A DNA stretch of 64,000 nt from Ancylobacter sonchi (GTDB taxonomy: Bacteria; Pseudomonadota; Alphaproteobacteria; Rhizobiales; Xanthobacteraceae), in the NCBI RefSeq assembly GCF_018390695.1, contig NZ_JAHBGF010000036.1:1-64000 (forward strand), given 5' to 3'. Every line of letters starts with the position of its first letter. The first letter of the stretch is position 1. A program made the translations under genes and the position numbers. Under the pieces are notes generated by a model that ran no database searches, was not told where the DNA came from, and saw only the letters and a program-made list of their open reading frames with translations. Of the stretch, positions 9,718-24,693 are shown piece by piece.

Positions 9718-10506
9718 CTAGACCGACAGGAAATCCTCGACCCGTCGGGCGAACGCCTCGGCACGCGTGCGCGGGTAGAAATGCCCGCCGTCAAGCGCGA
9801 CGAGCTCGGCGCCCGGAATGGCGCCGGCGATACGCTCCGACTGTCCGAACAGGATCATCTCGTCGTCCCGCGCGCCCACCACCAGCGTCGGCGCCGTGAT
9901 GCGGCCGAGATCGGCGGCGCGATCATAGGCGAGCAGCATGCGAATGCGGGCCGCCGTCACCGCCAGCGGCGCCAGCGCCTCCGCCGCCCGGCCGATGGCA
10001 GCGTCGAGCTCCGCCTCATGGGCGGCGATCCAGTCGGCGTCATAGCCGAGCACATGGGTGAAGGCCTGGTAGATCTCCGGCCGCCCCGCCTCCAGCAAGG
10101 CCAGCCGCGCCTCGAAGAGGGTGCGGAACCGCGCATCCGGCCCCGGCCAGCTGCCGGAGATCACGATCCGCCCGGTCCGCTCTGCCGCATCGAGGGCGAG
10201 CGTCTGCACCACCGTGCCGCCGGTGGAATGGCCGAGGAGATGCGCCCGCGCGCACCCCTCCCCGTCCATGATCTCCAGGACGTCGCGGCCAATGCGCTCG
10301 ATCGTGTAGGGGCCGTCCGGCCTGTCGCTGCGCCCGGCGCCGCGATGGTCGACGAGGATGAGTCGGAAACGCGCTTCCAGCTGCGCCGCCACCGGCTCCC
10401 AGAAGCGCCCGTCGCCGCCGAGGCCGGGGATCAGCACCACGGTGGGGCCGCTGCCGCGCACATCGTAGTGCACGCGGCAGCCATCGGAGGTGGTGATCAA
10501 CGGCAT
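9718..10506 (-). CDS. Alpha/beta-fold hydrolase
   Basis: A 262-residue alpha/beta hydrolase with the oxyanion segment LIPGLGGDGRFW (residues about 25-36), the nucleophile elbow GHSTGG (Ser about 95), the acid in VVGARDDEM and the catalytic His in LDGGHFY. It resembles the pimeloyl-ester/3-oxoadipate enol-lactonase group, but the substrate cannot be fixed. It is the last gene of a ten-gene minus-strand catabolic operon, separated by 21 bases from a proline-racemase-family gene. Its stop codon lies at the junction with the broken autotransporter. Confidence 0.85.
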   Translation of the reverse strand: MPLITTSDGCRVHYDVRGSGPTVVLIPGLGGDGRFWEPVAAQLEARFRLILVDHRGAGRSDRPDGPYTIERIGRDVLEIMDGEGCARAHLLGHSTGGTVVQTLALDAAERTGRIVISGSWPGPDARFRTLFEARLALLEAGRPEIYQAFTHVLGYDADWIAAHEAELDAAIGRAAEALAPLAVTAARIRMLLAYDRAADLGRITAPTLVVGARDDEMILFGQSERIAGAIPGAELVALDGGHFYPRTRAEAFARRVEDFLSV

Positions 10507-10527
10507 GGCAAGACCTCCCCGGATCGC

Positions 10528-11577
10528 TCAGATCGGCTGTTCGCCGGTGTAGCCCGGCCAGGTGTCGCCCAGCCGGTAGCCGTCCGGGAACGGATCGGTC
10601 GGGTCGAGCACATATTGATGGAAGGCGGTGATCCAGGCCGGCCCGGTGATGGTCGGCAGCACGGCCGGCACGCCGGCGAGTTCGGTGGCGCCGCGCAGCT
10701 GGCCGATGAACTCGGTGCCGATCAGCGAGCGATGCACGAAGCGCTCACCGACCGCGAGCTGGCCGCGCGCGTGCAGCACCGCCATGCGGGCGCAGGTGCC
10801 GGTGCCGCAGGGCGAGCGATCGTGCCGGCCCGGCGAGACGATGACGGTGTTCTTCGAGGTCAGCCCATCGGCGGTGCGTTCCAGAGGGCCGGCGAACAGC
10901 GTCTGGTTGATGGTGTGGATCTCCGGATTCTCCGGGTGAACCGCCGGCACCTGCTCGGCCGCCGCCTTCTTGATCCGCTCGCCGACCTCGACCAGCTCGC
11001 CGGCCTCCTTCAGGTCAAGCGAATAGCCGAGGCTCGCCGCGTCGACGATGGCGTAGATCATGCCGCCATAAGCGACGTCGACGTTGATCGTGCCGAGGCC
11101 GGGCACGTCCACCTTGGCATCGAGCGCGAAGACGAAGCCGGGTACGTTGTCGAAGGTGACGTTGACGCATTTGCCGTCGCGGCATTCGGCCGAGACCTTC
11201 ACCAGCCCGGCCGGCGCCTCCATGATCAGCTCGGTGACCGGCTCCTGCATCGGGATCATGCCGGTCTCGAGCAGCACGGTGACGGTGCAGATCGTGTTGG
11301 TGCCCGACATCGGCACATAATAGTTCGACTCGATGATGACGAAGCCGGCATCGGCTTCCGGCCGGGTCGGCGGCAGCACGAGGTTCACGCATTGCGAGAC
11401 GCGGCCGCGCGGCTCGTTCAGCAGGAACTTGCGCAGCTCGTCGCGATGCGCCTGCACATATTGCATCTTCTCGAACATGGTCTTGCCGGGGACGTCGCGG
11501 ACGCCCCCGGTGATGACCTCGTTGAGCTCGCCGGCCGCATGGGCGCCGACCACGGTGATCATGCGGCTGAAGCGCAT
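10528..11577 (-). CDS. Proline racemase family protein with a Ser/Cys active site
   Basis: A 349-residue member of the proline racemase/4-hydroxyproline epimerase/3-hydroxyproline dehydratase superfamily. The first catalytic position, normally the Cys of MCGHG, is Ser91 (PMSGTNTI), while the second is retained as Cys257 (SPCGTGT). The Ser-Cys pair marks a subgroup that includes hydroxyproline 2-epimerases with broadened specificity, distinct from racemases (Cys-Cys) and dehydratases (Cys-Thr). I start at the ATG at 11577 because GGAG lies 6 bases upstream and the distance to the previous gene becomes 10 bases; 13 extra codons upstream would overlap that gene. A second paralogue with Cys-Cys lies 3 kb upstream in the same operon. 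Confidence 0.87.
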   Translation of the reverse strand: MRFSRMITVVGAHAAGELNEVITGGVRDVPGKTMFEKMQYVQAHRDELRKFLLNEPRGRVSQCVNLVLPPTRPEADAGFVIIESNYYVPMSGTNTICTVTVLLETGMIPMQEPVTELIMEAPAGLVKVSAECRDGKCVNVTFDNVPGFVFALDAKVDVPGLGTINVDVAYGGMIYAIVDAASLGYSLDLKEAGELVEVGERIKKAAAEQVPAVHPENPEIHTINQTLFAGPLERTADGLTSKNTVIVSPGRHDRSPCGTGTCARMAVLHARGQLAVGERFVHRSLIGTEFIGQLRGATELAGVPAVLPTITGPAWITAFHQYVLDPTDPFPDGYRLGDTWPGYTGEQPI

Positions 11578-11587
11578 CGCTCTCTCC

Positions 11588-12496
11588 TCAGGCCGCGCTG
11601 CGCTGCGAGGCGGCAAGCGCCTTCACGGTCGCCTCGATCACGCCGAGCACCCGCTCGCGCTCGGCACCGACCAGCGGCAGGCGCGGCGCGCGCACCCATT
11701 CCGGCGCGCCATAGACCACCTGCTCGGCGATCTTGATGTACTGCACCAGCTTCACATCCGTATCGAGGTGGAAGGCGGGGGTGAGGATGCGGTAGAGAGC
11801 GCGCGCCTCGTCGAACTTGCCGGCCTTGCACAGGTTGAACAGCCGGACGCATTCCACCGGCCAGGCATTGGTCATGCCCGATACCCAGCCGGTGACGCCG
11901 AGCGCCGCGCTTTCCAGGAGCAGGTCGTCGACGCCGCAGAACACCGAGAAGCGGTCGCCGCACTCATTATAGAGGTCGGTGACGCGGCGGATGTCGCCGG
12001 TCTCTTCCTTGATGCAGACGATGTTCTTCACGTCGACGAGGTCGTTGAGGATCGCCGGGGTGACATCGACGCCATAGGCGATCGGGTTGTTGTAGATCAT
12101 GATCGGCAGGCCGCAGCCGGTGCCGAGCGTGCGGTACCACGCCGCCGTTTCGCGCGGGTCGCTCTTGTAGGCGATGGAGGGGAACGCCATCAGCCCCTCG
12201 GCGCCGAGCTTCTCATAGTGCCGGGCCGAGGCGAGCGCGTCGGCCATGCCGACATGGGCGAGGCCGGAGAGCAGCGGCACGCGGCCGGCGACGACTTCCT
12301 TGGCGGCGAGGATGACGGATTCGCGCTCGGCGGCGGTGAGCGAGGCGTTCTCGCCCAGCATCGGCAGCACGATGACGCCCGAGACGCCGCTCTTGATCAG
12401 CCGGTCGATGCTGGACTGGGTGGCGGCGAGGTCGACGCTCTCGTCCTGCTTCAGCTTGGTGGTGACGGCGGGAAAGACTCCGGTCCAGCGGGTCAT
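11588..12496 (-). CDS. Dihydrodipicolinate synthase (DapA) family lyase
   Basis: A 302-residue class I aldolase-fold protein. The Schiff-base lysine is Lys163 in VCIKEETGD and the partner tyrosine Tyr135 in IMIYNNP. DapA-family members in hydroxyproline operons act as 1-pyrroline-4-hydroxy-2-carboxylate deaminases, giving 2-oxoglutarate semialdehyde; that role is likely here because two proline-racemase-family genes and an FAD amine oxidoreductase share the operon. Family members with other sugar-acid or amino-acid substrates cannot be excluded. The gene is 8 bases from the mutase-like gene upstream. Confidence 0.87.
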   Translation of the reverse strand: MTRWTGVFPAVTTKLKQDESVDLAATQSSIDRLIKSGVSGVIVLPMLGENASLTAAERESVILAAKEVVAGRVPLLSGLAHVGMADALASARHYEKLGAEGLMAFPSIAYKSDPRETAAWYRTLGTGCGLPIMIYNNPIAYGVDVTPAILNDLVDVKNIVCIKEETGDIRRVTDLYNECGDRFSVFCGVDDLLLESAALGVTGWVSGMTNAWPVECVRLFNLCKAGKFDEARALYRILTPAFHLDTDVKLVQYIKIAEQVVYGAPEWVRAPRLPLVGAERERVLGVIEATVKALAASQRSAA

Positions 12497-12504
12497 GGCG
12501 TTTC

Positions 12505-14280
12505 CTATGGCGTTGGGAAGGTGTTGGCGAGTTCGGCGAGAAGGCCGGTGAGGTCGTCCGGCGTGTCGCAGGGCACGACGCCGATGCGGCGGATATCGTC
12601 ACGGACATCGACCGGAAGGCCGGAATTGCTGTCGTCCGGCACCTGGTTGAGCCGGCCGCCGATGCACACCGGCAGGTCGGCGCCGGCACGGGCGAGCGCC
12701 TCCTTGACCTCGCGCGCATAGCGCAGCGCGACGCCGTTATAGGTGCTGATCGCGATCAGGTCGGCCTTCGCCGCCAGCGCGGAGGCGACGAGATCGTCGG
12801 CATCGACGGAGGTGCCGCCGTCGACCACCGCGACGCCGAGTTGATCCAGCGTGCGGGCGATGAGGTTCTTGCCGTGCTCATGCACGTCGCTCGACGCCAC
12901 GCAGGCCACCGGGCGCCAGCCGGCAATGCGGGCGACGGCTTCAGGCGGCACGCGCGCGGCCCAGCCGCGGGCATCGTGCTCCAGCTCCTCCACCCATTCG
13001 GCGAGCGCCACCGAGCGGCGGCCGCTCCAGGCGGCGGCATCCGGCTCGCCGGCGCCAAAGGCCGCCTCCAGCCGCTTCGGTCCGATGGCGCGCAGGGCGA
13101 ACATCAGTTCGGCCGGGTCGGCGGTATCGATGCCGGCCTCGGCCAGTCCGGCCAGCGTGCGGGATGCGAAGAGCCGTCCGCCCTCCACCAGCCGGTCGGC
13201 GAGCGTGTCGACGGGGGCGAGGTCGATCAGCCCGGCGGAAGCACCGGCATGCTGGGCAAGGCGATGGGCGAACAGCTGCGCGTCGATGATCTCGTCGATG
13301 TCGGGGATGCGCTCGTTCTCGGTCACCGGCACCGGATTGATCGCGTGGCCCGAATGGGCGCGTGTGAGCGCCCAGATATCGGCCTGCAGATAGCTCGCAA
13401 GGCTCGCATAATTGCCGGCGGCGGTGGATTTGTAGCTCACCGTGTTGCCGAAGATCATGGTGCCCGGCGTATCGGTCACCTTCGCCAGTGCGGCATGGAA
13501 GGCCAGGCGCACCAGCGGTGCGGTGAAATGGTGGCCGAAGCAGTGCGAGAGCCGCGCGCCGATCAGCGTCTCGACGATGTGCTTCTCGACCAGCACCATG
13601 CCGAGCGCCGAGCTCATGTCGGAGAACAGCCCGGCAAAGCCGTCGTCGAGATTGGAATGCACCAGCACCTCCACCGGCTGCGCGGCGATAAGGCCGAGCG
13701 CGGTGACGGTGGCATGGGTGGTGGCGACGTCGTCGTCCCAGTCCGGCAGGCGGAAGGTGAAATACTGGCCGAGATTGCCGATGGCGGTGGCGCCGGCCGC
13801 CAGCGCACCTTTGGTGTTGTCGAGCGCGCCGGGCAGGCCGAGCATGAAGTCGCCGAAATGCGCAGCGGCGGGCGCGGCATTGGTGATGCGGGCGAAGCTT
13901 TCCGCCCCCTCCAGCACGATGCCGGTGCCGCGCCGGCTGCCCTGCCTCAGTTCGGGCGGATAGCCCATCGACATGTCGAGGGTGATGCCGAAACGGTCGA
14001 CCCGCGCGCCATGACGGGCAGCGGCCGCATGCACCTCGGCGATGGCCGTCACGGTGCGCTCGACGCTGCGAAAGCCGATATGGGCGTGCTGCATGATGCG
14101 CCCGGCCGCCGCCTCGCGACGCTTGTACTCCGCTTCGCTGGCGACGCCGTGCGCGTCGAGGAAGGCATTGCGGCCTACCGTCCATTCCCGCGCCAGCGCC
14201 CGCCCCTCGGCGACGAGATCGCGTCCCGGCCGTAGAGTCGGCGGGATCAACTGGTCGCGGGAGGGGAGCGGCGCGGTCAC
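12505..14280 (-). CDS. Cobalamin-dependent carbon-skeleton mutase-like protein
   Basis: A 591-residue, single-chain protein. Residues about 60-430 look like the TIM-barrel catalytic part of adenosylcobalamin mutases (DRFGITLDMSMG, RGTGIVLEGAESFARITNAA, HSNLDDGFAGLFSD, GHHFTAPL). Residues 455-590 form a B12-binding domain with the base-off motif DVHEHG (Asp465-x-His467-xx-Gly470), then ISTYNG (Ser512) and GGRLN (Gly541-Gly542). The layout resembles methylmalonyl-CoA, glutamate or ornithine mutases, but I do not recognise the barrel sequence as any of them. It sits between the DapA-family and NIPSNAP genes with gaps of 8 and 12 bases, so it belongs to the pathway. Substrate unknown. Confidence 0.8.
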   Translation of the reverse strand: MTAPLPSRDQLIPPTLRPGRDLVAEGRALAREWTVGRNAFLDAHGVASEAEYKRREAAAGRIMQHAHIGFRSVERTVTAIAEVHAAAARHGARVDRFGITLDMSMGYPPELRQGSRRGTGIVLEGAESFARITNAAPAAAHFGDFMLGLPGALDNTKGALAAGATAIGNLGQYFTFRLPDWDDDVATTHATVTALGLIAAQPVEVLVHSNLDDGFAGLFSDMSSALGMVLVEKHIVETLIGARLSHCFGHHFTAPLVRLAFHAALAKVTDTPGTMIFGNTVSYKSTAAGNYASLASYLQADIWALTRAHSGHAINPVPVTENERIPDIDEIIDAQLFAHRLAQHAGASAGLIDLAPVDTLADRLVEGGRLFASRTLAGLAEAGIDTADPAELMFALRAIGPKRLEAAFGAGEPDAAAWSGRRSVALAEWVEELEHDARGWAARVPPEAVARIAGWRPVACVASSDVHEHGKNLIARTLDQLGVAVVDGGTSVDADDLVASALAAKADLIAISTYNGVALRYAREVKEALARAGADLPVCIGGRLNQVPDDSNSGLPVDVRDDIRRIGVVPCDTPDDLTGLLAELANTFPTP

Positions 14281-14292
14281 GGGTGGTCTCCG

Positions 14293-14607
14293 TCAGCGCA
14301 TCGGCGAGAGCGGCGTCGGCGCCAATATGCGCGTCTGCTGGCTCTGGATCATGCCCTTGATCGCGGCGAGGTAGTCCTGCCACGGCTCATGCACGAGCAT
14401 CTTCGCCCGGCGTGCCTCGCGGTCGGCCATGCTGTCATAGCGCCAGAGCGCGACGACATGGTTCAGCTCGCCGATCTCGGTGACGAAATGGCCAACGAAC
14501 GTGCCGAGAAACTGCTTCTGGATATCAAGACCGAGCGTCTCGTAGGTCTTGATGAAGTCGCCCATGCGGCCGGGTACGATGTGGTAGTCGCGTTCCTCGA
14601 GGATCAT
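14293..14607 (-). CDS. NIPSNAP family protein
   Basis: A 104-residue ferredoxin-like dimeric alpha-beta barrel protein: ILEERDYHIVPGRMGDFIKTYETLGLDIQKQFLGTFVGHFVTEIGELNHVVALWRYDSMADREARRAKM. The pattern of a Y-x-hydrophobic-PG start, G-F-T-x-IG centre and VW-Y-S-x-R-R is typical of NIPSNAP proteins. Bacterial members often lie in catabolic operons and may bind or modify a small intermediate; no reaction is established. It is 18 bases from the epimerase gene upstream. Confidence 0.9.
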   Translation of the reverse strand: MILEERDYHIVPGRMGDFIKTYETLGLDIQKQFLGTFVGHFVTEIGELNHVVALWRYDSMADREARRAKMLVHEPWQDYLAAIKGMIQSQQTRILAPTPLSPMR

Positions 14608-14625
14608 GGCTCGCCCCTCCCTGCC

Positions 14626-15627
14626 TCACGCCAGCTGGAAGCCGAAGGCGAGCGGGTCGCGCTCGTCGACGGTAATGGTGTTGTGGCCATAGACCCGCGC
14701 CCAGCCGCCGATGCTGGGGCGGATGGCCGGGCGCCCGGCGACTTCCGCCGCGGTTTCCACCCGGCCGTGGAACAGCGTGCCGATGATGCTCTCATGCACG
14801 AACTCGTCGCCGACCTTCAAAAGCCCCTTGGCGACGCGCTGCGCCATGCGCGAGGAAGTGCCGGTGCCGCAGGGCGAGCGGTCGATGCCCTTGTCGCCGT
14901 AGAACACAGCGTTGCGGGCATGCGCCTCAGGGTGCTTCGGCCCGTCCGCCCACATCACATGGCTGACGCCGTTGATGCGTGGATCCTCGGGGTGCACAGG
15001 GGCCACCGCCTTCTGCACCGCCGCCCGCACGATCGGGCTCCATTTCAGGATGTCCTCGGCGCTCATGCCGTCGAGGCCAGCCCAGTTCTTCTGCGGCTCG
15101 ACGATGGCGTAATAGTTGCCGCCATAGGAGACGTCGACGACCAGTTCGCCGAAGCCGGGAATGTCGACGGTGACACCCTCGGCATGCAGGTAGCTCGGGA
15201 TGTTGAACAGCCGCACCTGGTCGACGAAGCGGCCATTGCGGGTATACTCGACCTCGACCCTGCCGGCCGGCACTTCCAGCGCCAGCTTGCCTTCGATGCG
15301 CGGCACCACGAAGCCCTGCTCCAGCGCCACGGTCACGGTGCCGATGGTGCCATGGCCGCACATGGGCAGGCAGCCGGACACCTCGATGAACAGCACGCCC
15401 AGCTCGCAATCCTCCCGCAAGGGCGGATAGAGAATCGAGCCGGACATCACGTCATGGCCGCGCGGCTCGAACATCAGCGCCTTGCGTACCCAGTCATGGT
15501 CGCGCAGGAAGATCTGCCGCTTCTCGGCCATCGGCACGTTGGGCAGCAGCGGCGCGCCGCCGGCGACCACACGCACCGGGTTGCCGCAGGTATGGGCGTC
15601 GACGCAGAGGAAAGTGTGCGGGTTCAT
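14626..15627 (-). CDS. 4-hydroxyproline 2-epimerase (proline racemase family)
   Basis: A 333-residue proline racemase family enzyme with the classical pair of catalytic cysteines: Cys90 in MCGHGT and Cys253 in SPCGTGTSS. The N-terminal DAHTCGNPVRVV is characteristic of hydroxyproline epimerases, which convert trans-4-hydroxy-L-proline to cis-4-hydroxy-D-proline as the first catabolic step. The adjacent FAD oxidoreductase would act next on the D-amino acid. A proline racemase activity cannot be excluded by sequence alone. The paralogue at 10528 differs in its first catalytic residue. Confidence 0.88.
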   Translation of the reverse strand: MNPHTFLCVDAHTCGNPVRVVAGGAPLLPNVPMAEKRQIFLRDHDWVRKALMFEPRGHDVMSGSILYPPLREDCELGVLFIEVSGCLPMCGHGTIGTVTVALEQGFVVPRIEGKLALEVPAGRVEVEYTRNGRFVDQVRLFNIPSYLHAEGVTVDIPGFGELVVDVSYGGNYYAIVEPQKNWAGLDGMSAEDILKWSPIVRAAVQKAVAPVHPEDPRINGVSHVMWADGPKHPEAHARNAVFYGDKGIDRSPCGTGTSSRMAQRVAKGLLKVGDEFVHESIIGTLFHGRVETAAEVAGRPAIRPSIGGWARVYGHNTITVDERDPLAFGFQLA

Positions 15628-15644
15628 GACGGACTCGGCGCTCT

Positions 15645-16871
15645 CTAGTTGAAGCGTTGGATGGCGAACGGCGCGACGTCGACCGAAGTGGGCCGGCCGG
15701 CGACCAGTTCGGCGATCAGGCGGCCGGTGGTGGGGCCGAAGGTGAGGCCGGTATGGCCGTGCCCGAAGGCGTAGAAGACATCGTCGCGCTTCGGCGAGCG
15801 GCCGATCACGGGCAGCGAATCCGCCGTGGTCGGGCGGTGGCCCATCCAGCGCGTGCCGCCTTGCGTGTTGAGCCCCGGCAGGAAGCGCCGGCCAAGTTCG
15901 GCCAGCGCGTCGGAGCGCGCATAGTTCGGGGCCGCGTCCAGCCCGGCGAACTCCGCCGCGCCGCCGATGCGCAGCCCCGACGCGATGGGAGTGGCGACGA
16001 AGGAACGCTCGGCGAAGATCACCTCGCGCGACAGCGAGAGGCCGGGAGACGGCAGCGTGGTGTTGTAGCCGCGCTCGCTCTCGATCAGCGCGCGGTCGCC
16101 GATCGTCCGGGCGAGCCGACCGGACCAGGCGCCGCCCGCAACCACCAGCCGGTCGAAGCCGATACGGCGGCCATCCTTCGTCAGCACCTCGCGACCGGCG
16201 ATGCCGGCAGCCTCACCCGTGACGATCGTCACGCCACGCGCCTCAAGATGAACGCGCAGCCGGTCGACGATGCGCTTCGGGTCGGAAACGTTCGACCATT
16301 GCGGGGTCATGATCGCATGACGGATGCTGCTCGCGAGCGCCGGCTCCATCCGCCGCGCTTCCTCGCCGCTCATTTCCTCGCAGACGAGCCCATGCCGGCG
16401 GCGCAGCCTGTGGAAGCGCATATCCGCCTCGAAGCCCTCGCGTGTCTCATAGACCCAGAGCGCGCCGACACGGTGCAGGTCGCCCGTCAGGTCGAGCTCG
16501 GCGAGCAGCGGCAGCAGGTCGTCATAGGTGCGGGCCGACAGCGTGGCGAGCGAGGCGGCGATCGCCTCTACCCGGTCCCAGCGCCCTTCCTTCAGGAAGC
16601 GCCGCAGCCAGGGCACCAGCTTCGGGAAATGGCGGAAGCGCAGCGACAGCGGCCCGAGCGGGTCGAACAGCCAGCCTGGCACCTTCCAGGCGAGGCCGGG
16701 CACCGAGGCCGGGATGATCTCGGTGACGCCTATGCCGGCGGCGTTGCCAAAGGAGCACTTGTCTCCTGGCGGGTCGCGGTCGAGCACCGAGACCTCATGG
16801 CCTTCCACGCGCAGCGCATGCGCACAGGAGAGACCGACGATACCGGCGCCGATGACAAGAATGCGCGACAT
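15645..16871 (-). CDS. FAD-dependent D-amino acid (D-hydroxyproline) dehydrogenase
   Basis: A 408-residue DadA-like oxidoreductase with the N-terminal dinucleotide-binding motif VIGAGIVGLS (GxGxxG at about residues 7-12) and a C-terminal FAD contact GHGHTGLTFGPTTGRLIAELV. It most likely oxidises a cis-4-hydroxy-D-proline-type substrate to the pyrroline carboxylate, passing electrons to the respiratory chain, because it lies 17 bases upstream of the epimerase gene. A general D-amino-acid dehydrogenase is the alternative. Length is usual for the family. Confidence 0.88.
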   Translation of the reverse strand: MSRILVIGAGIVGLSCAHALRVEGHEVSVLDRDPPGDKCSFGNAAGIGVTEIIPASVPGLAWKVPGWLFDPLGPLSLRFRHFPKLVPWLRRFLKEGRWDRVEAIAASLATLSARTYDDLLPLLAELDLTGDLHRVGALWVYETREGFEADMRFHRLRRRHGLVCEEMSGEEARRMEPALASSIRHAIMTPQWSNVSDPKRIVDRLRVHLEARGVTIVTGEAAGIAGREVLTKDGRRIGFDRLVVAGGAWSGRLARTIGDRALIESERGYNTTLPSPGLSLSREVIFAERSFVATPIASGLRIGGAAEFAGLDAAPNYARSDALAELGRRFLPGLNTQGGTRWMGHRPTTADSLPVIGRSPKRDDVFYAFGHGHTGLTFGPTTGRLIAELVAGRPTSVDVAPFAIQRFN

Positions 16872-16886
16872 GCCCGGCTGCGTCCT

Positions 16887-17705
16887 TCAAATGACCAGTG
16901 GATCGAAATGGCGCCGCACCGCCGCGGCGAGGCTGAGCGCGGTGAGGGCGGACGTCTTGGGATTGTCCGGCGACGGCCGGTTGGTAAAGCGCATCGCGGC
17001 ACTGCCGGCCGGGCTCTCCACCGCGATCTCGTGCGTGTTGCTTGTCACCGACGGATCGGCGACGACGCTCACGCCCGAAAGCGCCGGGCCGACGGCGAGT
17101 GCCACGGTGAGCCCGGCATTGAGATTGCGCGGGTAGCGCGCCGCCGCCTCGGCGGCGCTGCCCTCGAACAGCACCACTTCCGAGGCGAGCGCCGCCGGAT
17201 CGTGGCCGAGCGCGCTCAGTTCCTTGCTCCAGGCCGCCGGCGGCTTGCGCGAGACGTAGCGCACCCGCGCATCCGCGACGCCGGCGATGGCGGCGAGGTA
17301 ATCAAGCCCGCCAATGGCGCCGGCCGGCACGACGAGGCGCGCGCCGCTCGCCGCGGCGGCAAGCGTCAGCCGGCGCAGCAGCCCGTCATCGGCCAGCGCG
17401 CCGGTGGAGGCGACGACGAGGCTGATGCCGGCCTCGAGCAGCGTCGGTCCGTATTGCGCGACGGCGCCCTGCCCCGCCGCCTCGACCACCAGTGCCGGAC
17501 GGGTGGCGATCAGCGCCCCCAGCGTATCCACCGCACCGACGCCCGCCGGCAGCACTCCGTCCCCACGTCGCAGCACCGTGAGGCGATAGGCCGGGTCGGC
17601 GCCGAGCGTCGCCACCAGCGCACGGCCGATGGCGCCGAAGCCGATCAGGCCGACATGGTGCAGGCCGACATGGCGCGGGCAAGCCGGATCGCGCGGCGCA
17701 CTCAT
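16887..17705 (-). CDS. Aspartate dehydrogenase-like NAD(P) oxidoreductase
   Basis: A 272-residue protein of the aspartate dehydrogenase (NadX/DUF108) family: an N-terminal Rossmann motif GLIGFGAIGRAL, ARPALVVEAAGQ-type second strand, LVVPAGAIGGLDYLAA, and a C-terminal domain with NLNAGLTVALAVG and DPSVTSNTHEI, where the His is the catalytic residue of the family. The preferred ATG (17705) lies four bases after the stop of the preceding SDR; an upstream ATG would overlap that gene by 41 bases. Family members in catabolic operons can act in the deaminating or aminating direction, or on related amino acids. The substrate is probably an intermediate of this operon. Confidence 0.82.
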   Translation of the reverse strand: MSAPRDPACPRHVGLHHVGLIGFGAIGRALVATLGADPAYRLTVLRRGDGVLPAGVGAVDTLGALIATRPALVVEAAGQGAVAQYGPTLLEAGISLVVASTGALADDGLLRRLTLAAAASGARLVVPAGAIGGLDYLAAIAGVADARVRYVSRKPPAAWSKELSALGHDPAALASEVVLFEGSAAEAAARYPRNLNAGLTVALAVGPALSGVSVVADPSVTSNTHEIAVESPAGSAAMRFTNRPSPDNPKTSALTALSLAAAVRRHFDPLVI

Positions 17706-17709
17706 GGCC

Positions 17710-18462
17710 TCACCAGGCCGACATGCCGCCATCGACGGTGAACATCGCACCGGTGGCGAAGGAGGCTTCGTCGGAGGCGAGCCAGAGGATGGCGCTGGCG
17801 ATCTCGACCGGCTGGGCCCAGCGGTTGATCGGCGAGCGCGCCTTCAGCTTGGCCTTGAAGGTCTCGGGATCGGGATGGTTGGCGACCATCTTCTCGAAAT
17901 AGCTCGACCAGGTGACGCCCGGCGCGACACAGTTCACCCGGATGTTCTGTTCGGCATGGTCGAGCGCCATCGCCTTGGTCAGCGCCGCGACGCCGCCCTT
18001 GGAGGCGACATAGGCGGCGCGGTCGAAGATGCCGACGGTGGCGACGTTGGAGGCGGTATTGACGATGGTACCGCCGCCCTGCGCCGCCATCGCCGGGATG
18101 GCATGCTTGCAGCAGAGGAAGACGCCCTTGAGGTTGACCGCCATCAGCGCGTCCCAGTCGGCTTCCTCGGTATTTACAACCGTGCCCGGAATACCGTAGC
18201 CCGCATTGTTGGCGAGGATGTCGAGGCGACCGAAACGCTCCACGGCGGTATCGATCATCCGCTTCACATCGTCGTTGCGGCTGACGTCGACCGCCATGGC
18301 GATGGCGTTCGGCCCCAGACGCTCGGCGACCCGGGCGGCACCCTCGCCGTTGCGGTCGGCCAGCAGGACGCGGGCACCTTCCCGCACGAACAGTTCGGCT
18401 GCCGCCTCACCGATCCCGGCGGCGGAGCCGGTGATGATGGCGGCTTTGTCTTTGAGACGCAT
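17710..18462 (-). CDS. Short-chain dehydrogenase/reductase (SDR)
   Basis: A 250-residue classical SDR with the cofactor motif TGSAAGIGEA, the structural NNAG, the catalytic Ser in NTASNVATVG and Y-x3-K in YVASKGG, and the end motif DGGMSAW. An acidic residue after the second strand (LLADR) points to NAD(H) preference. It is the second gene of the minus-strand catabolic operon, between the cupin and the aspartate-dehydrogenase-like gene. Substrate not deducible. Confidence 0.92.
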   Translation of the reverse strand: MRLKDKAAIITGSAAGIGEAAAELFVREGARVLLADRNGEGAARVAERLGPNAIAMAVDVSRNDDVKRMIDTAVERFGRLDILANNAGYGIPGTVVNTEEADWDALMAVNLKGVFLCCKHAIPAMAAQGGGTIVNTASNVATVGIFDRAAYVASKGGVAALTKAMALDHAEQNIRVNCVAPGVTWSSYFEKMVANHPDPETFKAKLKARSPINRWAQPVEIASAILWLASDEASFATGAMFTVDGGMSAW

Positions 18463-18517
18463 GGAATCCTCGACAGTCAGGAAGGGGTCGCCTCCGGCCG
18501 GCAGGCGGCCGAAGGGC

Positions 18518-19060
18518 TCACGGCCGGCGCTGGTCGGTCGGCGGGGCGGCGAAGACGGTGTCGCGCTCGATCTGCAGCACGTTCTCCGGACGCGGGAACG
18601 GCTCGGGCGCCGGCTCGCCGGGCTGGCGGTCCCGGCCGATCAGGCGGAAGAAGTCCTCCAGCCCGTTCGGTACGATGAGCCAGGTCCAGAGGATATCGCC
18701 CTCGCCCTCGTTGATGAACATGTGCCGGCGGTTGCGCCCGATGAAGAAGGCCGAGCCCGGCAGCATCGGGTGGTCGACGCCGTCGATCACGGCACGCCCC
18801 TTGCCACTGACGACGAAGATGACCTCCTCGTTCCGATCATGGGCATGTTCGCGCACATAGCCGCCCGGCGGCACCGTCTGCGTCCCGAAGCCGATGGGAA
18901 ACTCCATCGGCACGACATGCGGGGCGAAAATCACGTCGATATGGCCGTTGGCCGGCACCGGCTGCCAGTAGCTGGTCGCCTCGCCCGGCTGCTTGATCAG
19001 CACGTCGCCGATATAGCTCGTCGTGCCCGCCTGGGAGGTTGCGTCCGCTTGTTCAGACAT
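18518..19060 (-). CDS. Cupin-domain protein
   Basis: A 180-residue single-domain cupin. Motif 1 is GGYVREHAHDRNEEVIFVVSGKG (metal ligands His-x-His and Glu) and motif 2 includes PGSAFFIGRNRRHMFINEG. Proteins like this resemble gentisate dioxygenase-type or metal-binding storage cupins; here a small metal-dependent oxygenase or isomerase is possible. It is the first gene of the minus-strand operon and is divergent from the GntR regulator gene, with two matching operator palindromes in between. Confidence 0.88.
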   Translation of the reverse strand: MSEQADATSQAGTTSYIGDVLIKQPGEATSYWQPVPANGHIDVIFAPHVVPMEFPIGFGTQTVPPGGYVREHAHDRNEEVIFVVSGKGRAVIDGVDHPMLPGSAFFIGRNRRHMFINEGEGDILWTWLIVPNGLEDFFRLIGRDRQPGEPAPEPFPRPENVLQIERDTVFAAPPTDQRRP

Positions 19061-19230: not shown

Positions 19231-19917
19231 ATGATCGCGAAAGTCGGCCGCCAGTCGTTGACGGACCAGATCGTCACCGAACTGCGGCATCAGATCATCA
19301 CGGGCCAGCTGGCCGAGGGCGCCCCCCTGCGCCAGGAAAAGCTGGCCACCGAGCTGGGGGTTTCCCGCGTCCCGTTGCGCGAGGCGATCCGCCAGCTGGA
19401 GGCCGAGGGCCTCGTGGTGTCGGAACTGCACAAGGGGACGGTGGTGACCTCCCTGTCGCTGGAGGAGATCGAGGAGCTGTTCGAGATCCGCGTGCGCATG
19501 GAGACCTGGCTGTTCGAGGCCGCCATCCCGCACATGACGGAAGAGGATTTCGTCCTGGCCGAAACCGTCACCGACGAGGCCATGGCGAGCGGCAGCGTGG
19601 AGAATTGGGGCGAGCTCAACTGGCGCTTCCACGAGGCGCTGTATCGCCCGAGCGGTCACCTGATCGCGCTGCGGCTGCTGCGGACCGTGCATGACAACGC
19701 CAACCGCTACGTGAACCTGCAGATCGCGGTGGCCGAAGACGTGGAGCGCGAGCTTCAGGACCACCGCGCGCTGATCGCCTTCGCCCGGCTCGGCGACATC
19801 CGCCGGGGTGGCGACACGCTGCGGGCGCACATCCAGCGCGTCTCGCGCAACCTCATTGCATCGCTCGCCGAAGGGCGGCGGGGCAAGTCGCGCAACGTCG
19901 CGCGCAACATCGCTTGA
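19231..19917 (+). CDS. GntR-family regulator, FCD (FadR) type
   Basis: A 228-residue regulator with an N-terminal winged helix (LTDQIVTELRHQIITGQLAEGAPLRQEKLATELGVSRVPLREAIRQLEAEGLV, about residues 9-62) and an all-helical FCD ligand domain (about residues 75-215) with likely metal-binding His residues (NWRFHEAL, LLRTVHDN, ALIAFARLGDI). FCD domains bind organic acids or amino-acid-derived intermediates. The gene lies between the divergent catabolic operon and a Liv importer and is flanked by the two matching palindromes, so it probably controls both. The ATG follows ATGGAGCGA. Confidence 0.93.
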   Translation: MIAKVGRQSLTDQIVTELRHQIITGQLAEGAPLRQEKLATELGVSRVPLREAIRQLEAEGLVVSELHKGTVVTSLSLEEIEELFEIRVRMETWLFEAAIPHMTEEDFVLAETVTDEAMASGSVENWGELNWRFHEALYRPSGHLIALRLLRTVHDNANRYVNLQIAVAEDVERELQDHRALIAFARLGDIRRGGDTLRAHIQRVSRNLIASLAEGRRGKSRNVARNIA

Positions 19918-19993: not shown

Positions 19994-21100
19994 ATGCGTT
20001 TGAAGAACATGCTCTGCGCTGCCGTTGCCATGGCCGCGCTGACCGGAGCGGCCCAGGCCGATATCCTGATCGGCACGGCGGGGCCGACCACCAATGCCGA
20101 GGCGCTGTTCGGCACCACCTGGCAGAACGGCATGGACCTCGCAATCCGCGAGGCGAATGCGGCCGGCGGCGTCCAGGGGCAGAAGCTCGTCCTCGTGCGC
20201 GACGATGACGGCGGCGACCCGAAGCAGGGCACGCTGATCGCCCAGAAGCACTGCGACACGGCCGGCATGCTCGGCGTGGTCGCCAACTTCAACTCGGGCG
20301 TGACCATTCCCTCGTCGGACATCTACAACCGCTGCGGCATGCCGCAGGTGACCAACGCCTCCAACCCGAAGGTCACCAAGGCCGGCTACAAGAACCTGTT
20401 CCGTCCGATCGCCAACGACCTGTCGCAGGGCTCGGCGCCGGCCGAATACGCGCTGACCAAGCTCGGCGCCAAGAAGGCCGCCATCGTCCACGATAAGCAG
20501 GCCTTCGGCCAGGGCGTCGCCGAGGTGTTCCGCACCAACTTCACCAAGGGCGGCGGCACCGTCACCTCCTTCTCCGGCATCGCCCAGACCGACGTCGACT
20601 TCTCCGCGCTGCTCTCCTCCATCCGCGCCGAGAACCCGGACGTGGTCTATTTCGGCGGCGTCATGCCGGCGGTCGGCCTGTTCGTGAAGCAGGCGCGCGA
20701 GCTCGGCATCAAGGCGACCTTCTTCGCCGCCGACAGCGCCTTCTCCCCGGACTTCATCGCCGGCGCCGGCCCCGCCTCGGAAGGCGCGGTGGTGTCCTTC
20801 CAGGCCCCGCCCTATGATTCCTCGCCGGCGCTGAAGAAGTTCGCCGCCGACTACAAGGCCGCCTTCGGCGAAGAGCCCGGCCCCTACTCGGCCTATGGCT
20901 ATGTGGAAGCCACCATCATCATCGAGGCGATGAAGAAGGCCCCTGCCCCGCTGACCCGCGCCGGCATCGTCTCCGAGATCGCCAAGAGCGACTTCGACGG
21001 CATCGTCGGCCACGTCGCCTTCACGCCGGAAGGCGAGCTGCAGAAGCCGTTCCTGTTCCTCTACGGGGTTAAGGACGGCAAGTTCGAGCTCGTCAAGTAA
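19994..21100 (+). CDS. Liv-type ABC importer, periplasmic substrate-binding protein
   Basis: A 368-residue LivK/LivJ-like binding protein. A signal peptide (residues about 1-22, ending AAQA) precedes the mature start DILIGTAGPTTNAEA. The fold features of type I periplasmic binding proteins are evident: GMDLAIREANAAGGVQGQKLVLVRDDDGGDPKQG and a long C-terminal lobe (GPYSAYGYVEATIIIEAMKKA). The start at 19994 is chosen because the preceding frame is not protein-like and the ATG begins a clear signal peptide. It is separated from the permease genes by a hairpin, so it is probably made in excess. The ligand is likely the substrate degraded by the divergent operon rather than leucine. Confidence 0.93.
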   Translation: MRLKNMLCAAVAMAALTGAAQADILIGTAGPTTNAEALFGTTWQNGMDLAIREANAAGGVQGQKLVLVRDDDGGDPKQGTLIAQKHCDTAGMLGVVANFNSGVTIPSSDIYNRCGMPQVTNASNPKVTKAGYKNLFRPIANDLSQGSAPAEYALTKLGAKKAAIVHDKQAFGQGVAEVFRTNFTKGGGTVTSFSGIAQTDVDFSALLSSIRAENPDVVYFGGVMPAVGLFVKQARELGIKATFFAADSAFSPDFIAGAGPASEGAVVSFQAPPYDSSPALKKFAADYKAAFGEEPGPYSAYGYVEATIIIEAMKKAPAPLTRAGIVSEIAKSDFDGIVGHVAFTPEGELQKPFLFLYGVKDGKFELVK

Positions 21101-21162
21101 GGCCGGTTCCCGGTTCTGCCGCTCCTGCTTCACGATCCGGCCCCCTCCGCCGTGAAGCTACT

Positions 21163-21208
21163 GGGTCCGGCGCGATGCGCCCCCGCACATCCGCGCCGGA
21201 CCCCTTTT
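21163..21208 (+). terminator. Attenuator-like hairpin between binding-protein and permease genes
   Basis: Perfect 12-bp arms GGGTCCGGCGCG (21163-21174) and CGCGCCGGACCC (21192-21203) enclose a 17-base loop and are followed by CTTTT. A second pair, GCTTCACG (21127-21134) and CGTGAAGC (21151-21158), precedes it. Such hairpins after a binding-protein gene usually give partial termination and protect the upstream mRNA. Confidence 0.7.
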
Positions 21209-21239
21209 CGCCCACCACCGGAAGCAACGGAAGGCTGCC

Positions 21240-22181
21240 ATGGGCGCCCTCATTCTCCAGCAGACGATCAACGCCCTCACCGTCGGGTCGATCTACGCGC
21301 TCATCGCGCTCGGCTACACGATGGTCTACGGCGTGCTGCGTCTCATCAACTTCGCCCATAGCGAGCTGTTCACCGCCGGCGCCTTCATCGGCCTCGCGCT
21401 TGCCGGCGCGCTCGGCGTGGCCGGCCATCCGACGGGCGGGCTGCTCGTCGGCTTCATCACCTTCGTGCTGATCGGCCTCGCCGGCGTCAGCGTCGAGATC
21501 GTCGCCTACCGGCCGCTGCGCGGCACCTCCCGCCTCGCGCCGATGCTCTCGGCGCTCGGCATGGCGGTGGTGATCCAGAACGCGGTGATGCTGATCGGTG
21601 GCCGCCGACCGCTGATCTACCCGTCCTTCCTGCCCAGCGGCGTGATCGACGTGTTCGGCGCCATCATCACCTACAAGCAGATCACCATCTTCCTCGTCGC
21701 CGTGATCCTCATGGTCGGGCTGGAGCTGTTCGTGAACCGCACCAATCTCGGCGTGCGCATCCGCGCCGTGGCGGAGAATGCCGAGACCGCCTCGCTGGTC
21801 GGCATCAACCCGAACATGGCGATCTCGCTGATCTTCTTCATCGGCCCCGGCCTCGGCGCCGTCGCCGGCATCCTCTATTCGTCCTTCTACGGCGTGGCGA
21901 CCTTCACCATGGGGTTCGTCATCGGCATGAAGGCCTTCACCGCGGCGATCCTCGGCGGCATCGGCTCGATCCCCGGCGCGGTGCTCGGCGGCTTCCTGCT
22001 GGGCTTCATCGAGACCTTCGCCACCGCGTGGATGCCGGTGCTCTCCGGCGGCCTGATCGGCACCGAGTATCGCGACATCTTCGCCTTCTCCGTGCTGGTC
22101 CTGATCCTGCTGTTCCGTCCCGCCGGCCTGCTCGGCGAGCACGTCAGCGAAGAAACCATGGTGTACAAGAGTGACTTCTGA
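21240..22181 (+). CDS. Liv-type ABC importer permease (LivH-like)
   Basis: A 313-residue inner-membrane permease with about eight helices. Its N-terminus (LILQQTINALTVGSIYALIALGYTMVYGVLRLINFAH) is the hallmark of LivH proteins, as are EIVAYRPLRG, RAVAENAETASLVGIN and the late FTAAILGGIGSIPGAVLGGFLLG, which contacts the ATPase. The protein ends at the fusion point with the next gene (stop 22179-22181). It forms a heterodimer channel with the LivM-like permease. Confidence 0.95.
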   Translation: MGALILQQTINALTVGSIYALIALGYTMVYGVLRLINFAHSELFTAGAFIGLALAGALGVAGHPTGGLLVGFITFVLIGLAGVSVEIVAYRPLRGTSRLAPMLSALGMAVVIQNAVMLIGGRRPLIYPSFLPSGVIDVFGAIITYKQITIFLVAVILMVGLELFVNRTNLGVRIRAVAENAETASLVGINPNMAISLIFFIGPGLGAVAGILYSSFYGVATFTMGFVIGMKAFTAAILGGIGSIPGAVLGGFLLGFIETFATAWMPVLSGGLIGTEYRDIFAFSVLVLILLFRPAGLLGEHVSEETMVYKSDF

Positions 22182-22191
22182 GGCATCGCAC

Positions 22192-23208
22192 ATGGAAAGC
22201 CGCGCCCGCGCGGCGGCGCCCGCCTCGGGAGCCGCCGCCCCCCGCAAGCTCTGGCCCGGCGCGCTGGCGATGCTGGCCGTGCCGGTCCTGCTCCTCATCG
22301 TCGGACCGCATCTCCCGTCCTACCCGCTGCGCATCCTCGACATGATCCTGCTCTATGCCGTGCTCGGCCTGGGGCTGAACATCATCGTCGGCTATGCCGG
22401 CCTGCTCGACCTCGGCTATGTCGCCTTCTACGCCATCGGCGCCTATTCCTGGGCGCTGCTGGCCTCCGGCCAGTTCGACATCCACCTGCCCTTCGCGCTG
22501 GTACTGCTGATCGGGGCCAGCCTCGCAGGCCTCGCGGGCATCCTGCTCGGCATCCCCGTGCTGCGCCTGCGCGGCGACTATCTCGCCATCGTCACGCTGG
22601 GCTTCGGCGAGATCATCCGCGTGCTGATGAACAATCTCGACGTCGTCACCAACGGTCCGCAGGGCATTGCCCGCATCGACGAGGCGCATCTGTTCGGCTG
22701 GACGCTGAGCACGCCCGACGACTTCCTCTATCTCCTCGTAGCCATGCTGGTGGTGGTGTTCCTGTTCGTCTGGCGTATCCAGGAGAGCGCGCTCGGCACC
22801 GCGCTGTCCGCCGTGCGAGAGGACCAGGACGCCGCGCGCGGCTGCGGCATCAACACCACCCGCGTGAAGCTGGTCGCCTTCGCCTTCAGCGCCTTCATCG
22901 GCGGTGCCTGCGGCGTGGTCTTCGCCGCCATGCAGCGCTTCGTCTCGCCGGAGAGCTTCACCTTCTGGGAATCGCTGGTGATCGTGCTGGTGATCGTGGT
23001 GGGTGGCCTCGGCAATCCGTTCGGCGCGCTGCTCGGCGCGACGCTGCTGATCCTTCTGCCCGAATTGCTGCGCGCCTATGCCGACTACCGGCTGCTGTTC
23101 TACGGCATGGCGCTGGTGGTGATCATCCTCGCCCGTCCGCGCGGCCTGATCAGCCGGCAATACGGGCCGAGCTGGCTGATGCGCCGGCTGGGAGGCGGCA
23201 AATGCTGA
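22192..23208 (+). CDS. Liv-type ABC importer permease (LivM-like)
   Basis: A permease of about 338 residues with the LivM signatures DMILLYAVLGLGLNIIVGYAGLLDLGYVAFYAIGAYSWALL, LRLRGDYLAIVTLGFGEIIRVLMNN, and VREDQDAARGCGINTTRVKLVAFAFSAFIGGACGV. I prefer the ATG at 22192, which has GAGG 8 bases upstream; a GTG at 22171 in frame would overlap the preceding gene by 11 bases. The first 30 residues are a non-conserved Ala-rich extension. The C-terminus overlaps the next gene. Confidence 0.94.
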   Translation: MESRARAAAPASGAAAPRKLWPGALAMLAVPVLLLIVGPHLPSYPLRILDMILLYAVLGLGLNIIVGYAGLLDLGYVAFYAIGAYSWALLASGQFDIHLPFALVLLIGASLAGLAGILLGIPVLRLRGDYLAIVTLGFGEIIRVLMNNLDVVTNGPQGIARIDEAHLFGWTLSTPDDFLYLLVAMLVVVFLFVWRIQESALGTALSAVREDQDAARGCGINTTRVKLVAFAFSAFIGGACGVVFAAMQRFVSPESFTFWESLVIVLVIVVGGLGNPFGALLGATLLILLPELLRAYADYRLLFYGMALVVIILARPRGLISRQYGPSWLMRRLGGGKC

Positions 23209-24041
23209 CATTCGACCACGTCACCAAGCGGTTCGGCGAACTGGCGGCCATCGACGACGTGTCCTTCGAGGTGAAGCCGGGCGTCATCACCGCGGTGATC
23301 GGCCCGAACGGCGCCGGCAAGTCGACGCTGGTCAACATGGCGGCCGGCTCCTACGGCGTCACCTCGGGGCGCATCCTCGTCGACGGCGTCGAGCTGCAGA
23401 AGCTGCCGAAACACCGCATCGCCCATGCCGGGCTGTCGCGCACCTACCAGAACATCCGCCTGTTCGACGGCATGAGCGTGGTGAAGAACCTCGAAGTGGC
23501 GCTGGTGCCGCCGCGCGTCGGCAGCCTCATCGCCAACACCTTCGGGCTGAGCGGCCGCGCCGCAGCCGAGGAGCGCCGCGCGCGCTGCCACGCGGTGCTG
23601 GATCGCCTGGGGCTCGCCGCCCATGCCGAGCGGCAGGCCGGCAGCCTTGCCTATGGCCAGCAGAAACTGGTCGAGCTCGCCCGCGCCATCGTCGCCGAAC
23701 CGCGCGTGCTGCTGCTCGACGAGCCGGCCGCCGGCCTCAACCACGGCGAGACCGAGCAGCTCAAGCAGCACATCCTCGCGCTGCGCTCCCCGGACCTCGC
23801 CATGGTCCTCATCGAACACGACATGAAACTGATCATGTCGATCTCGGACACCATCGTCGTGATGAATCGCGGCCAGCTGCTGGCGCAAGGCACCGCTGGC
23901 GAGATCCGGTCCAACACCGAAGTGCAGGAGGCGTATCTTGGCCAGCCAGGAGCCATCAAGGACATCGAAGCCGCTGCTCGCGGTCGACGCAATCGAGTCC
24001 GGCTACGGGAGGGTGAAGGTCTTACATGGCATCAGCCTTGA
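23202..24041 (+). CDS. Liv-type ABC importer ATPase (LivG-like)
   Basis: A 279-residue ATPase: Walker A GPNGAGKST (residues about 36-44), Q-loop SRTYQNIRLFDGMSVVKNLEVAL, signature AYGQQKLVELARAIVAEPRVLLLDEPAAGLNHGE with Walker B, and the H-loop in LIEHDMKLIM. The usual LivG C-terminus VQEAYLG is followed by about 35 extra residues that overlap the start of the next gene in another frame; the tail looks translated only because the frame stays open. GGAGG lies 8 bases before the ATG. Confidence 0.95.
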   Translation: MLTFDHVTKRFGELAAIDDVSFEVKPGVITAVIGPNGAGKSTLVNMAAGSYGVTSGRILVDGVELQKLPKHRIAHAGLSRTYQNIRLFDGMSVVKNLEVALVPPRVGSLIANTFGLSGRAAAEERRARCHAVLDRLGLAAHAERQAGSLAYGQQKLVELARAIVAEPRVLLLDEPAAGLNHGETEQLKQHILALRSPDLAMVLIEHDMKLIMSISDTIVVMNRGQLLAQGTAGEIRSNTEVQEAYLGQPGAIKDIEAAARGRRNRVRLREGEGLTWHQP

Positions 24042-24693
24042 GGTACTTCCCGGAGAGGTCGTCTGCATCATCGGCCCGAACGGCGCCGGCAAGACCACGC
24101 TGCTGCGTACCATCAGCGGGCTGAACAAGCCGACGCGCGGCTCCATCCGCTTCAAGGGCGAGGAGGTCGCCGGCCTCAAGCCCTACCAGATGGTGCGGCG
24201 CGGCCTCGGCCACTGCCCGGAGGGTCGACGCGTCTTCCAGCTCTCCATCGAGGAGAACCTGATCACCGGCTACATCCCCGGCCGTGGCAAGAGCTTCGCC
24301 GAGCTGCGCGATCAGGTTTACACGCTGTTCCCCATCCTCGGCGAGCGACGCCACCAGTCGGCCGGCCGTCTCTCCGGCGGCCAGCAGCAGATGGTGGCGA
24401 TCGGCCGCGCGCTGATGGGCAGCCCGGAGCTCCTGCTGCTCGACGAGCCCTCGCTCGGGCTGGCGCCGATCATCATCCACCAGATCTTCGAGATCGTGCT
24501 GAAGCTCGCCGAAAGCGGCGTGTCGATCATCCTCGTCGAGCAGAACATCGACCTGTCCTTCGAGGTCGCCGACTTCGTCTACGCGCTGGAGCACGGCTCG
24601 CTGCAATGCTCGGGCCCGGCCGCGAAGATGGCCGCCGATCCGCGCATCAAGGACATCTATCTGCCGGGCCTCGACGGCCAGGACTCCCACTAG
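23938..24693 (+). CDS. Liv-type ABC importer ATPase (LivF-like)
   Basis: A 251-residue ATPase with Walker A GPNGAGKTT, signature LSGGQQQMVAIGRALMGSPELLLLDEPSLGL and the late H-loop region ILVEQNIDLSFEVADFVYALEHG. No ATG precedes the first conserved residues. The start is a TTG with an ideal AGGAGG ribosome-binding site 6 bases upstream, so the gene overlaps its neighbour by 104 bases. The protein forms a heterodimer with the LivG-like ATPase. It completes the importer; the SDR gene follows after 37 bases. Confidence 0.93.
   Translation: MASQEPSRTSKPLLAVDAIESGYGRVKVLHGISLEVLPGEVVCIIGPNGAGKTTLLRTISGLNKPTRGSIRFKGEEVAGLKPYQMVRRGLGHCPEGRRVFQLSIEENLITGYIPGRGKSFAELRDQVYTLFPILGERRHQSAGRLSGGQQQMVAIGRALMGSPELLLLDEPSLGLAPIIIHQIFEIVLKLAESGVSIILVEQNIDLSFEVADFVYALEHGSLQCSGPAAKMAADPRIKDIYLPGLDGQDSH

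Follow-up and report, generated by a model that had tools for sequence, protein, structure and literature searches.

Which reaction, and on which substrate, a single-chain B12-dependent mutase-like protein carries out in a hydroxyproline-type gene setting is the question raised by a locus of Ancylobacter sonchi (the window: the whole 64,000-nucleotide stretch analyzed, positions 1 to 64,000 of contig NZ_JAHBGF010000036.1).

Gene and operon organization

The gene (12505..14280, minus strand) starts with GTG and encodes a protein of 591 amino acids, recognized from its open reading frame (ORF), Pfam matches, and predicted fold. It is one of ten consecutive minus-strand genes (9718-19060) and is separated by 8 bp from a gene encoding a DHDPS/NAL-family protein (11588..12496) and by 12 bp from a gene encoding a NIPSNAP-family protein of 104 amino acids (14293..14607). 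Beyond the latter lie genes for a proline-racemase-family protein of the 4-hydroxyproline epimerase type (14626..15627), an FAD-dependent amino-acid oxidase/dehydrogenase (DAO; 15645..16871), an aspartate-dehydrogenase-like (AspDH-like) protein (16887..17750), a short-chain dehydrogenase (SDR; 17710..18462), and a cupin (18518..19060). On the opposite side are a second proline-racemase-family protein (10528..11616), for which the nearest model, trans-3-hydroxyproline dehydratase, scored below the cut-off, and an alpha/beta hydrolase (9718..10506). The DHDPS/NAL, NIPSNAP, cupin, and hydrolase assignments were made with Pfam, and the others with Pfam and NCBIfam. The NCBIfam 4-hydroxyproline epimerase model gave the epimerase-type gene 580 bits against a cut-off of 376. 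Aldehyde dehydrogenase, the last enzyme of the hydroxyproline pathway, is absent from the ten operon genes according to Pfam. A GntR-type regulator gene, named by sequence reading (19231..19917, plus strand), diverges from the operon, and branched-chain-amino-acid-type ABC transporter genes (20030..24693, plus strand, outer limits approximate) fall into the same clusters as genes of a Shinella plasmid that bear this annotation. Rfam at gathering score returned no match in the window, and thus no known B12 riboswitch. Sequence reading of the second proline-racemase-family protein places Ser (MSGTN) at the position of the first catalytic Cys, with the second Cys kept; a Ser-Cys dyad is mentioned in a passage of PMC4113996.

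B12-binding domain and predicted fold

The Pfam B12-binding family (PF02310) matches residues 458-544 (E = 2e-13), and fold alignment together with Pfam delimits a B12-binding Rossmann domain at residues about 458-587 (12520..12909, minus strand). The domain contains DVHEHG (residues 465-470), Ser512, and GG541-542, in agreement with the first-pass annotation, which had claimed a complete B12-binding domain. The proposed cobalt-ligand motif is D465-V-H467-E468 (12877..12888, minus strand). Conservation was assessed in 100 sequences, comprising 98 of 99 fetched homologues (>520 residues, no internal stop), the query, and a Phyllobacterium protein. D465 and H467 are kept in all of them, as are Ser/Thr at position 512 and GG541-542, so the motif is invariant among the homologues, the point on which the same annotation had proposed to be checked. 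NCBIfam matched the B12 region only (methionine synthase, corrinoid proteins, and mutases), in every case below the cut-off.

The AlphaFold2 model built from a 22-row alignment (mean pLDDT 92.2, pTM 0.92) starts with a helical N terminus, continues into a barrel, and ends in a Rossmann-type domain, with the TIM-barrel region placed at residues about 48-349 (13234..14139, minus strand) by predicted secondary structure and fold-alignment ranges. The model and its strong matches to B12 mutases bear out the earlier description of a single chain that combines a TIM-barrel region with a B12 domain, the latter being C-terminal in the model. When the top 1000 Foldseek entries were ranked by VIA-align, the E chain of glutamate mutase came first (1cb7_B, Z 28.6, rmsd 3.3, 364 aligned residues) and the alpha subunit of lysine 5,6-aminomutase second (Z 26.5), with lower scores for ornithine aminomutase (3kp0_A, Z 22.1, rmsd 3.6) and methylmalonyl-CoA mutase (MCM; 2xiq_A, Z 19.1, rmsd 4.9; 6oxc_B, Z 20.3 at rmsd 16). 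The first non-mutase chain was IspG/GcpE (Z 17.0). The B12 domain aligned with the S chain of glutamate mutase at Z 15.6 and rmsd 2.4. The Foldseek E-values were 3.5e-13 for methylmalonyl-CoA mutases, 5.4e-10 for ornithine aminomutase, 2.9e-8 for methionine synthase, and 6.7e-8 for glutamate mutase. The methylmalonyl-CoA mutase family thus has the best Foldseek E-values and also carries its B12 domain C-terminal to the barrel in one chain, but its Z scores are lower (about 19-20), its models miss the barrel, and no CoA ligase was recognized among the ten operon genes.

Barrel sequence and conserved residues

Over 22 aligned members, Pfam families other than B12-binding matched at most 2 of 22 each, never at an E-value under 0.0046, and PDB sequence searches, whether started from the single protein or from the 22-row profile, gave a convincing match at the B12 domain only. 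A PDB row for SRP68 (E 0.18, single-protein search) and rows for adrenodoxin and others outside the B12 region (E 0.013 and above, 22-row profile) were taken as chance. Neither PF06368 (glutamate mutase E chain) nor PF09043 (PLP-dependent aminomutases) matched any of the 22 sequences, with E-values allowed up to 10, NCBIfam gave no TIGR01503 match to the protein encoded at 12505..14280, the MM_CoA_mutase barrel models matched none of the 22, and the MCM-type matches of NCBIfam were limited to the B12 region. The A1 profile aligned with three glutamate mutase sequences over the B12 part alone. A barrel-only hhalign comparison with glutamate mutase ran from end to end at a nonsignificant probability of 0.9-3.4%, so homology to glutamate mutase rests on the predicted fold. 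The first-pass annotation had found the barrel not recognizable. This holds for the sequence libraries used (Pfam, NCBIfam, and PDB), none of which matches convincingly, but is too strong as a general statement because the predicted structure brings the barrel close to those of glutamate mutase and the aminomutases.

E321 and P326 are invariant at fixed spacing in the 100 sequences. The segment E321-N-E-R-I-P326 (13303..13320, minus strand) is the proposed site of a Glu that would contact the deoxyadenosyl ribose and promote Co-C cleavage, with counterparts in GlmE, ornithine aminomutase (OAM), and KamD. In glutamate mutase (6h9e_B), E330 lies within H-E-A-I-G-I-P, and we take Glu330 to be the residue near the deoxyadenosyl ribose. 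A KamD relative has P-T-E-G-V-F-T-P. The OAM residue E338 lies within P-D-E-G-R-N-V-P, as deduced from the mutagenic primers in PMC4413051; passages of the same article describe compromised substrate-induced Co-C homolysis in E338 variants and, where a similar glutamate was changed, a loss of turnover that was 12-fold for MCM and 5000-fold for glutamate mutase. The Glu-to-Pro spacing of the window protein is the same as in 6h9e_B, OAM, and KamD, and both barrel alignments (0.9-3.4% probability) put E321 at this position.

Among the other conserved residues, R96 is present in 100 of 100 sequences, and H65, H141, H208, H312, R71, R112, R177, and R258 are each present in 98 or 99. Two divergent members with 33-35% identity (L022 and L026) are altered at H65, H141, H208, H312, and R71; they therefore probably act on a different substrate from the main family. 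Residues R66, R100, R149, and E171 of glutamate mutase, which we take to hold glutamate, were each time placed by hhalign, run twice (0.9-3.4% probability), opposite His/Gln67, Met/Trp103, His141, and Gly168; manual placement offers Gly106 for R100 and Asn169 for E171, and none of these is Arg or Glu. Because the alignments reach such low probabilities, replacement of the glutamate-binding arginines in this family is suggestive only. The earlier proposal of a new enzyme had been made dependent on the barrel not aligning with a known mutase class with conserved substrate residues. The fold is indeed that of the glutamate mutase class, yet the glutamate-binding residues are apparently not kept in this low-confidence alignment.

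Distribution and gene neighborhoods

The protein was found in 5 of 198 genomes of the organism's own family, all in its own genus, and in 17 of 385 genomes of the class Alphaproteobacteria. A genome-contig scan yielded 233 relatives, the best 80 of which are all Alphaproteobacteria, as judged by their names, and include Ancylobacter, Bosea, Brucella/Ochrobactrum, Rhizobium, Mesorhizobium, Shinella, Rhodobacteraceae, and Acetobacter. A wider search of 299 Pseudomonadota genomes gave 12 matches, 3 of them spanning the whole protein; the other nine are partial, end at the B12 domain, and belong to open frames 1172-1313 residues long, probably methionine synthases. No relative was found in viral contigs, and the PLSDB plasmid collection contains it in nine records, eight of them spanning 80% or more of the query. 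Of the annotated full-length copies, the three examined are named "cobalamin-dependent protein" (two) or "hypothetical protein" (one). No description of this protein family was recognized in the open-licence literature, as judged by titles and the beginnings of abstracts.

Of 95 loci, the 75 flanked on each side by 5 kb or more entered the neighborhood counts, and the 20 with <5 kb on a side were left out. Genes like pyrroline-5-carboxylate (P5C) reductase and AspDH were called by tblastn within 10 kb (E up to 1e-20, one reference each). The counts are not independent because the loci are phylogenetically clumped and may include duplicates. A P5C-reductase-like gene lies near the mutase gene at 48 of 75 loci and an AspDH-like gene at 40, with both at 25, one or both at 63, and neither at 12. 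Proline-racemase-family and DAO genes occur together at 15 loci, at none of which (0/75) is a P5C-reductase-like gene also present; 11 loci have none of the P5C-reductase-like, racemase-family, and DAO genes, and 1 has a DAO-like gene only. The apparent exclusion between P5C-reductase-like and racemase-plus-oxidase genes is weakened by shared ancestry and by a Phyllobacterium plasmid, outside the 75-locus count, that has both sets. In this plasmid, the P5C reductase and mutase genes stand in divergent orientation to genes for a racemase, an aldehyde dehydrogenase, and an FAD oxidoreductase and to dapA-type and ABC genes. The A. sonchi genome itself has two P5C-reductase-like matches elsewhere (34-35% identity).

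The term "hydroxyproline-type operon," used in the first-pass annotation, is fair for Ancylobacter because the operon contains epimerase-type, amino-acid-oxidase-family, and DHDPS-family genes. This setting is found in more than one part of the tree (considered without support values), yet it is a minority one and not general, since racemase and oxidase genes are near just 15 of the 75 loci. In operons of the Rhizobium/Mesorhizobium type, the mutase gene is accompanied by cupin, AspDH, alpha/beta hydrolase, and NIPSNAP genes and also by pyruvate/acetoin-dehydrogenase-type E1/E2, FAD Delta1-dehydrogenase-like, and carnitine-dehydrogenase-like genes, and at several loci of the Rhodobacteraceae type the mutase and P5C-reductase-like genes form a near-isolated pair. 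A PhyH-type dioxygenase-like gene occurs at eight loci in all, with NCBIfam matches below the cut-off, and a RidA-like gene was noted at L088.

Several other arrangements were observed. An 11.9-kb contig (L041 1-11918, genome G504) carries five mutase-family ORFs in tandem, one of which is interrupted by an in-frame stop, together with two P5C-reductase-like ORFs. A 289-amino-acid protein encoded in rhizobial-type and some other mutase operons (L073 15526-16395 and 26 further loci, cluster k9) has no Pfam or NCBIfam match in its L073 copy, and its predicted fold (pLDDT 90) resembles the Pictet-Spenglerase McbB over nearly the full length (Foldseek E 1.5e-12, TM 0.76/0.71, 15% identity), which is unexpected in an operon of catabolic appearance. 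In a Mesorhizobium metagenome-assembled genome (MAG; L095 3460-21150 and L158), a hydroxyproline-type set, the mutase gene, and a glutamate mutase set lie within about 22 kb. The order is DHDPS, DAO, aldehyde dehydrogenase, racemase-family, SDR, and GntR genes, then the mutase gene, and 6 kb past it GlmS, GlmL, GlmE, methylaspartate ammonia-lyase, and fumarase-type genes.

GlmL/MutL, the reactivase of glutamate mutase, exceeded the cut-off in 2 of 21 genomes that have the mutase gene and in 0 of 21 that lack it, and both copies adjoin a divergent homologue of the window protein (33-35% identity), an arrangement confirmed for the copy of genome G458. Matches below the cut-off occurred in two further positive genomes and one negative genome, and none in the A. 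sonchi genome. With no more than these 2 of 21 positive genomes over the cut-off, and both copies beside a divergent homologue, GlmL was rejected as a general partner of the family. The control genomes of Haloferax volcanii and Methanosarcina acetivorans gave sub-cut-off matches to MutL (PF13941), and that of H. volcanii also gave one to PF06368.

Proposed function and alternatives

The best explanation of the window protein, held with good confidence, is an adenosylcobalamin radical mutase, because a B12 motif, a mutase-like fold, the Glu motif associated with homolysis, and the GlmL link occur together. The sequence, its conservation, the predicted fold, and the gene neighbors are results of the analysis; the cofactor form, the radical chemistry, and the substrate class are inferred. 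More specifically, the protein is rather likely to be a single-chain carbon-skeleton mutase with a predicted fold of the glutamate mutase class, and its substrate is probably a catabolite derived from an amino or imino acid. For this substrate class taken by itself the chances appear about even; it is suggested by the recurring C-N oxidoreductases, the amino-acid-type transporters, the RidA-like gene, and the racemase and oxidase genes. Given the strongly differing neighbors, one common substrate across lineages is not assured.

The nearest known system is glutamate mutase (GlmE/GlmS), which has the closest predicted fold and shares the DxH B12 domain, the Glu five residues before Pro, and the presence of GlmL beside divergent members. 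The window protein might accordingly be thought a divergent glutamate (methylaspartate) mutase that forms 3-methylaspartate from glutamate for oxidation by the AspDH-like neighbor, a pairing available at 40 of the 75 loci, and the Mesorhizobium gene 6 kb from the GlmS-GlmL-GlmE-methylaspartate ammonia-lyase set would fit such a role. However, glutamate mutase has two chains instead of one, its barrel is undetectable by sequence in this family, and the glutamate-binding Arg and Glu residues are apparently replaced in the two weak alignments. The canonical enzyme is already encoded at the Mesorhizobium locus (705.7 versus 390.1 bits), and PF06368 was found in 2 of the 22 mutase-positive genomes searched (G886 and G225), being absent from the other 20 and without a match in the A. 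sonchi genome. Because the family models fail to match and the canonical enzyme coexists at one locus, the protein is not filed as a glutamate mutase, which we regard as unlikely. Single ORFs with a GlmS-like B12 domain before a GlmE-like barrel were also observed (L129 1474-3405 and L130 1477-3504, genomes G591 and G225).

Orthology to the anaerobic 2-methyleneglutarate mutase, or action on a 2-methylene diacid, is quite unlikely. We take 2-methyleneglutarate mutase to consist of one chain that is comparable in length and carries its B12 domain at the C terminus, which would suit the window protein, but it belongs to the anaerobic nicotinate pathway, most hosts of the present family are aerobic, and no nicotinate-fermentation genes were recognized in the neighborhoods read by eye. 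A corrinoid methyltransferase or B12-sensing protein is very unlikely. The B12 domain by itself is as close in sequence to MetH and to methyltransferase corrinoid proteins as to mutases, but the barrel scores much higher against mutases than against unrelated barrels and carries the Glu motif of mutases, GlmL adjoins divergent relatives, and Pfam found no DNA-binding domain. A PLP-dependent aminomutase of the ornithine 4,5- or lysine 5,6-aminomutase kind is highly improbable, since, although KamDE/OraSE share the barrel fold (Z 26.5, the second-best match, and 22.1), the Glu motif, and, in OraE, the joining of barrel and B12 domain, their PLP lysine 11 residues past the cobalt His (K629/H618 and K144/H133 in a passage of PMC3958899, and likewise in KamE of L153) is a Lys in 0 of the 100 aligned sequences. 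At L153 (132-3821, alphaproteobacterial), sequence reading places a P5C-reductase-like ORF before the KamD and KamE genes. Relative to the mutases compared here, the family is most likely an undescribed one, with 2-methyleneglutarate mutase as the main alternative.

As a carbon-skeleton mutase, the window protein would bind B12 in the base-off form with H467 on cobalt. On arrival of the substrate, the B12 domain would close over the barrel and E321 would assist breakage of the Co-C bond. The deoxyadenosyl radical would then abstract a substrate hydrogen, a neighboring group would move by one carbon, and the hydrogen would be returned. An NAD(P)-linked C-N oxidoreductase, either P5C-reductase-like or AspDH-like, may link the substrate to the pathway. 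A more specific and doubtful idea is that the enzyme rearranges a cyclic imino acid or imine, for example by ring expansion or contraction between compounds of the pyrroline and piperideine carboxylate type, with the imine made or consumed by the P5C-reductase-like partner or the racemase-plus-oxidase pair. If true, this would be the first B12 radical mutase acting on a cyclic imino acid or imine.

To our knowledge, the B12-dependent carbon-skeleton mutases described so far catalyze no more than a handful of reactions. A further conserved family in rhizobia, Rhodobacteraceae, and soil bacteria would point to a rearrangement in amino- or imino-acid breakdown that is missing from present pathway maps, and the small module of a mutase and a P5C-reductase-like enzyme would make its substrate directly searchable by assay.
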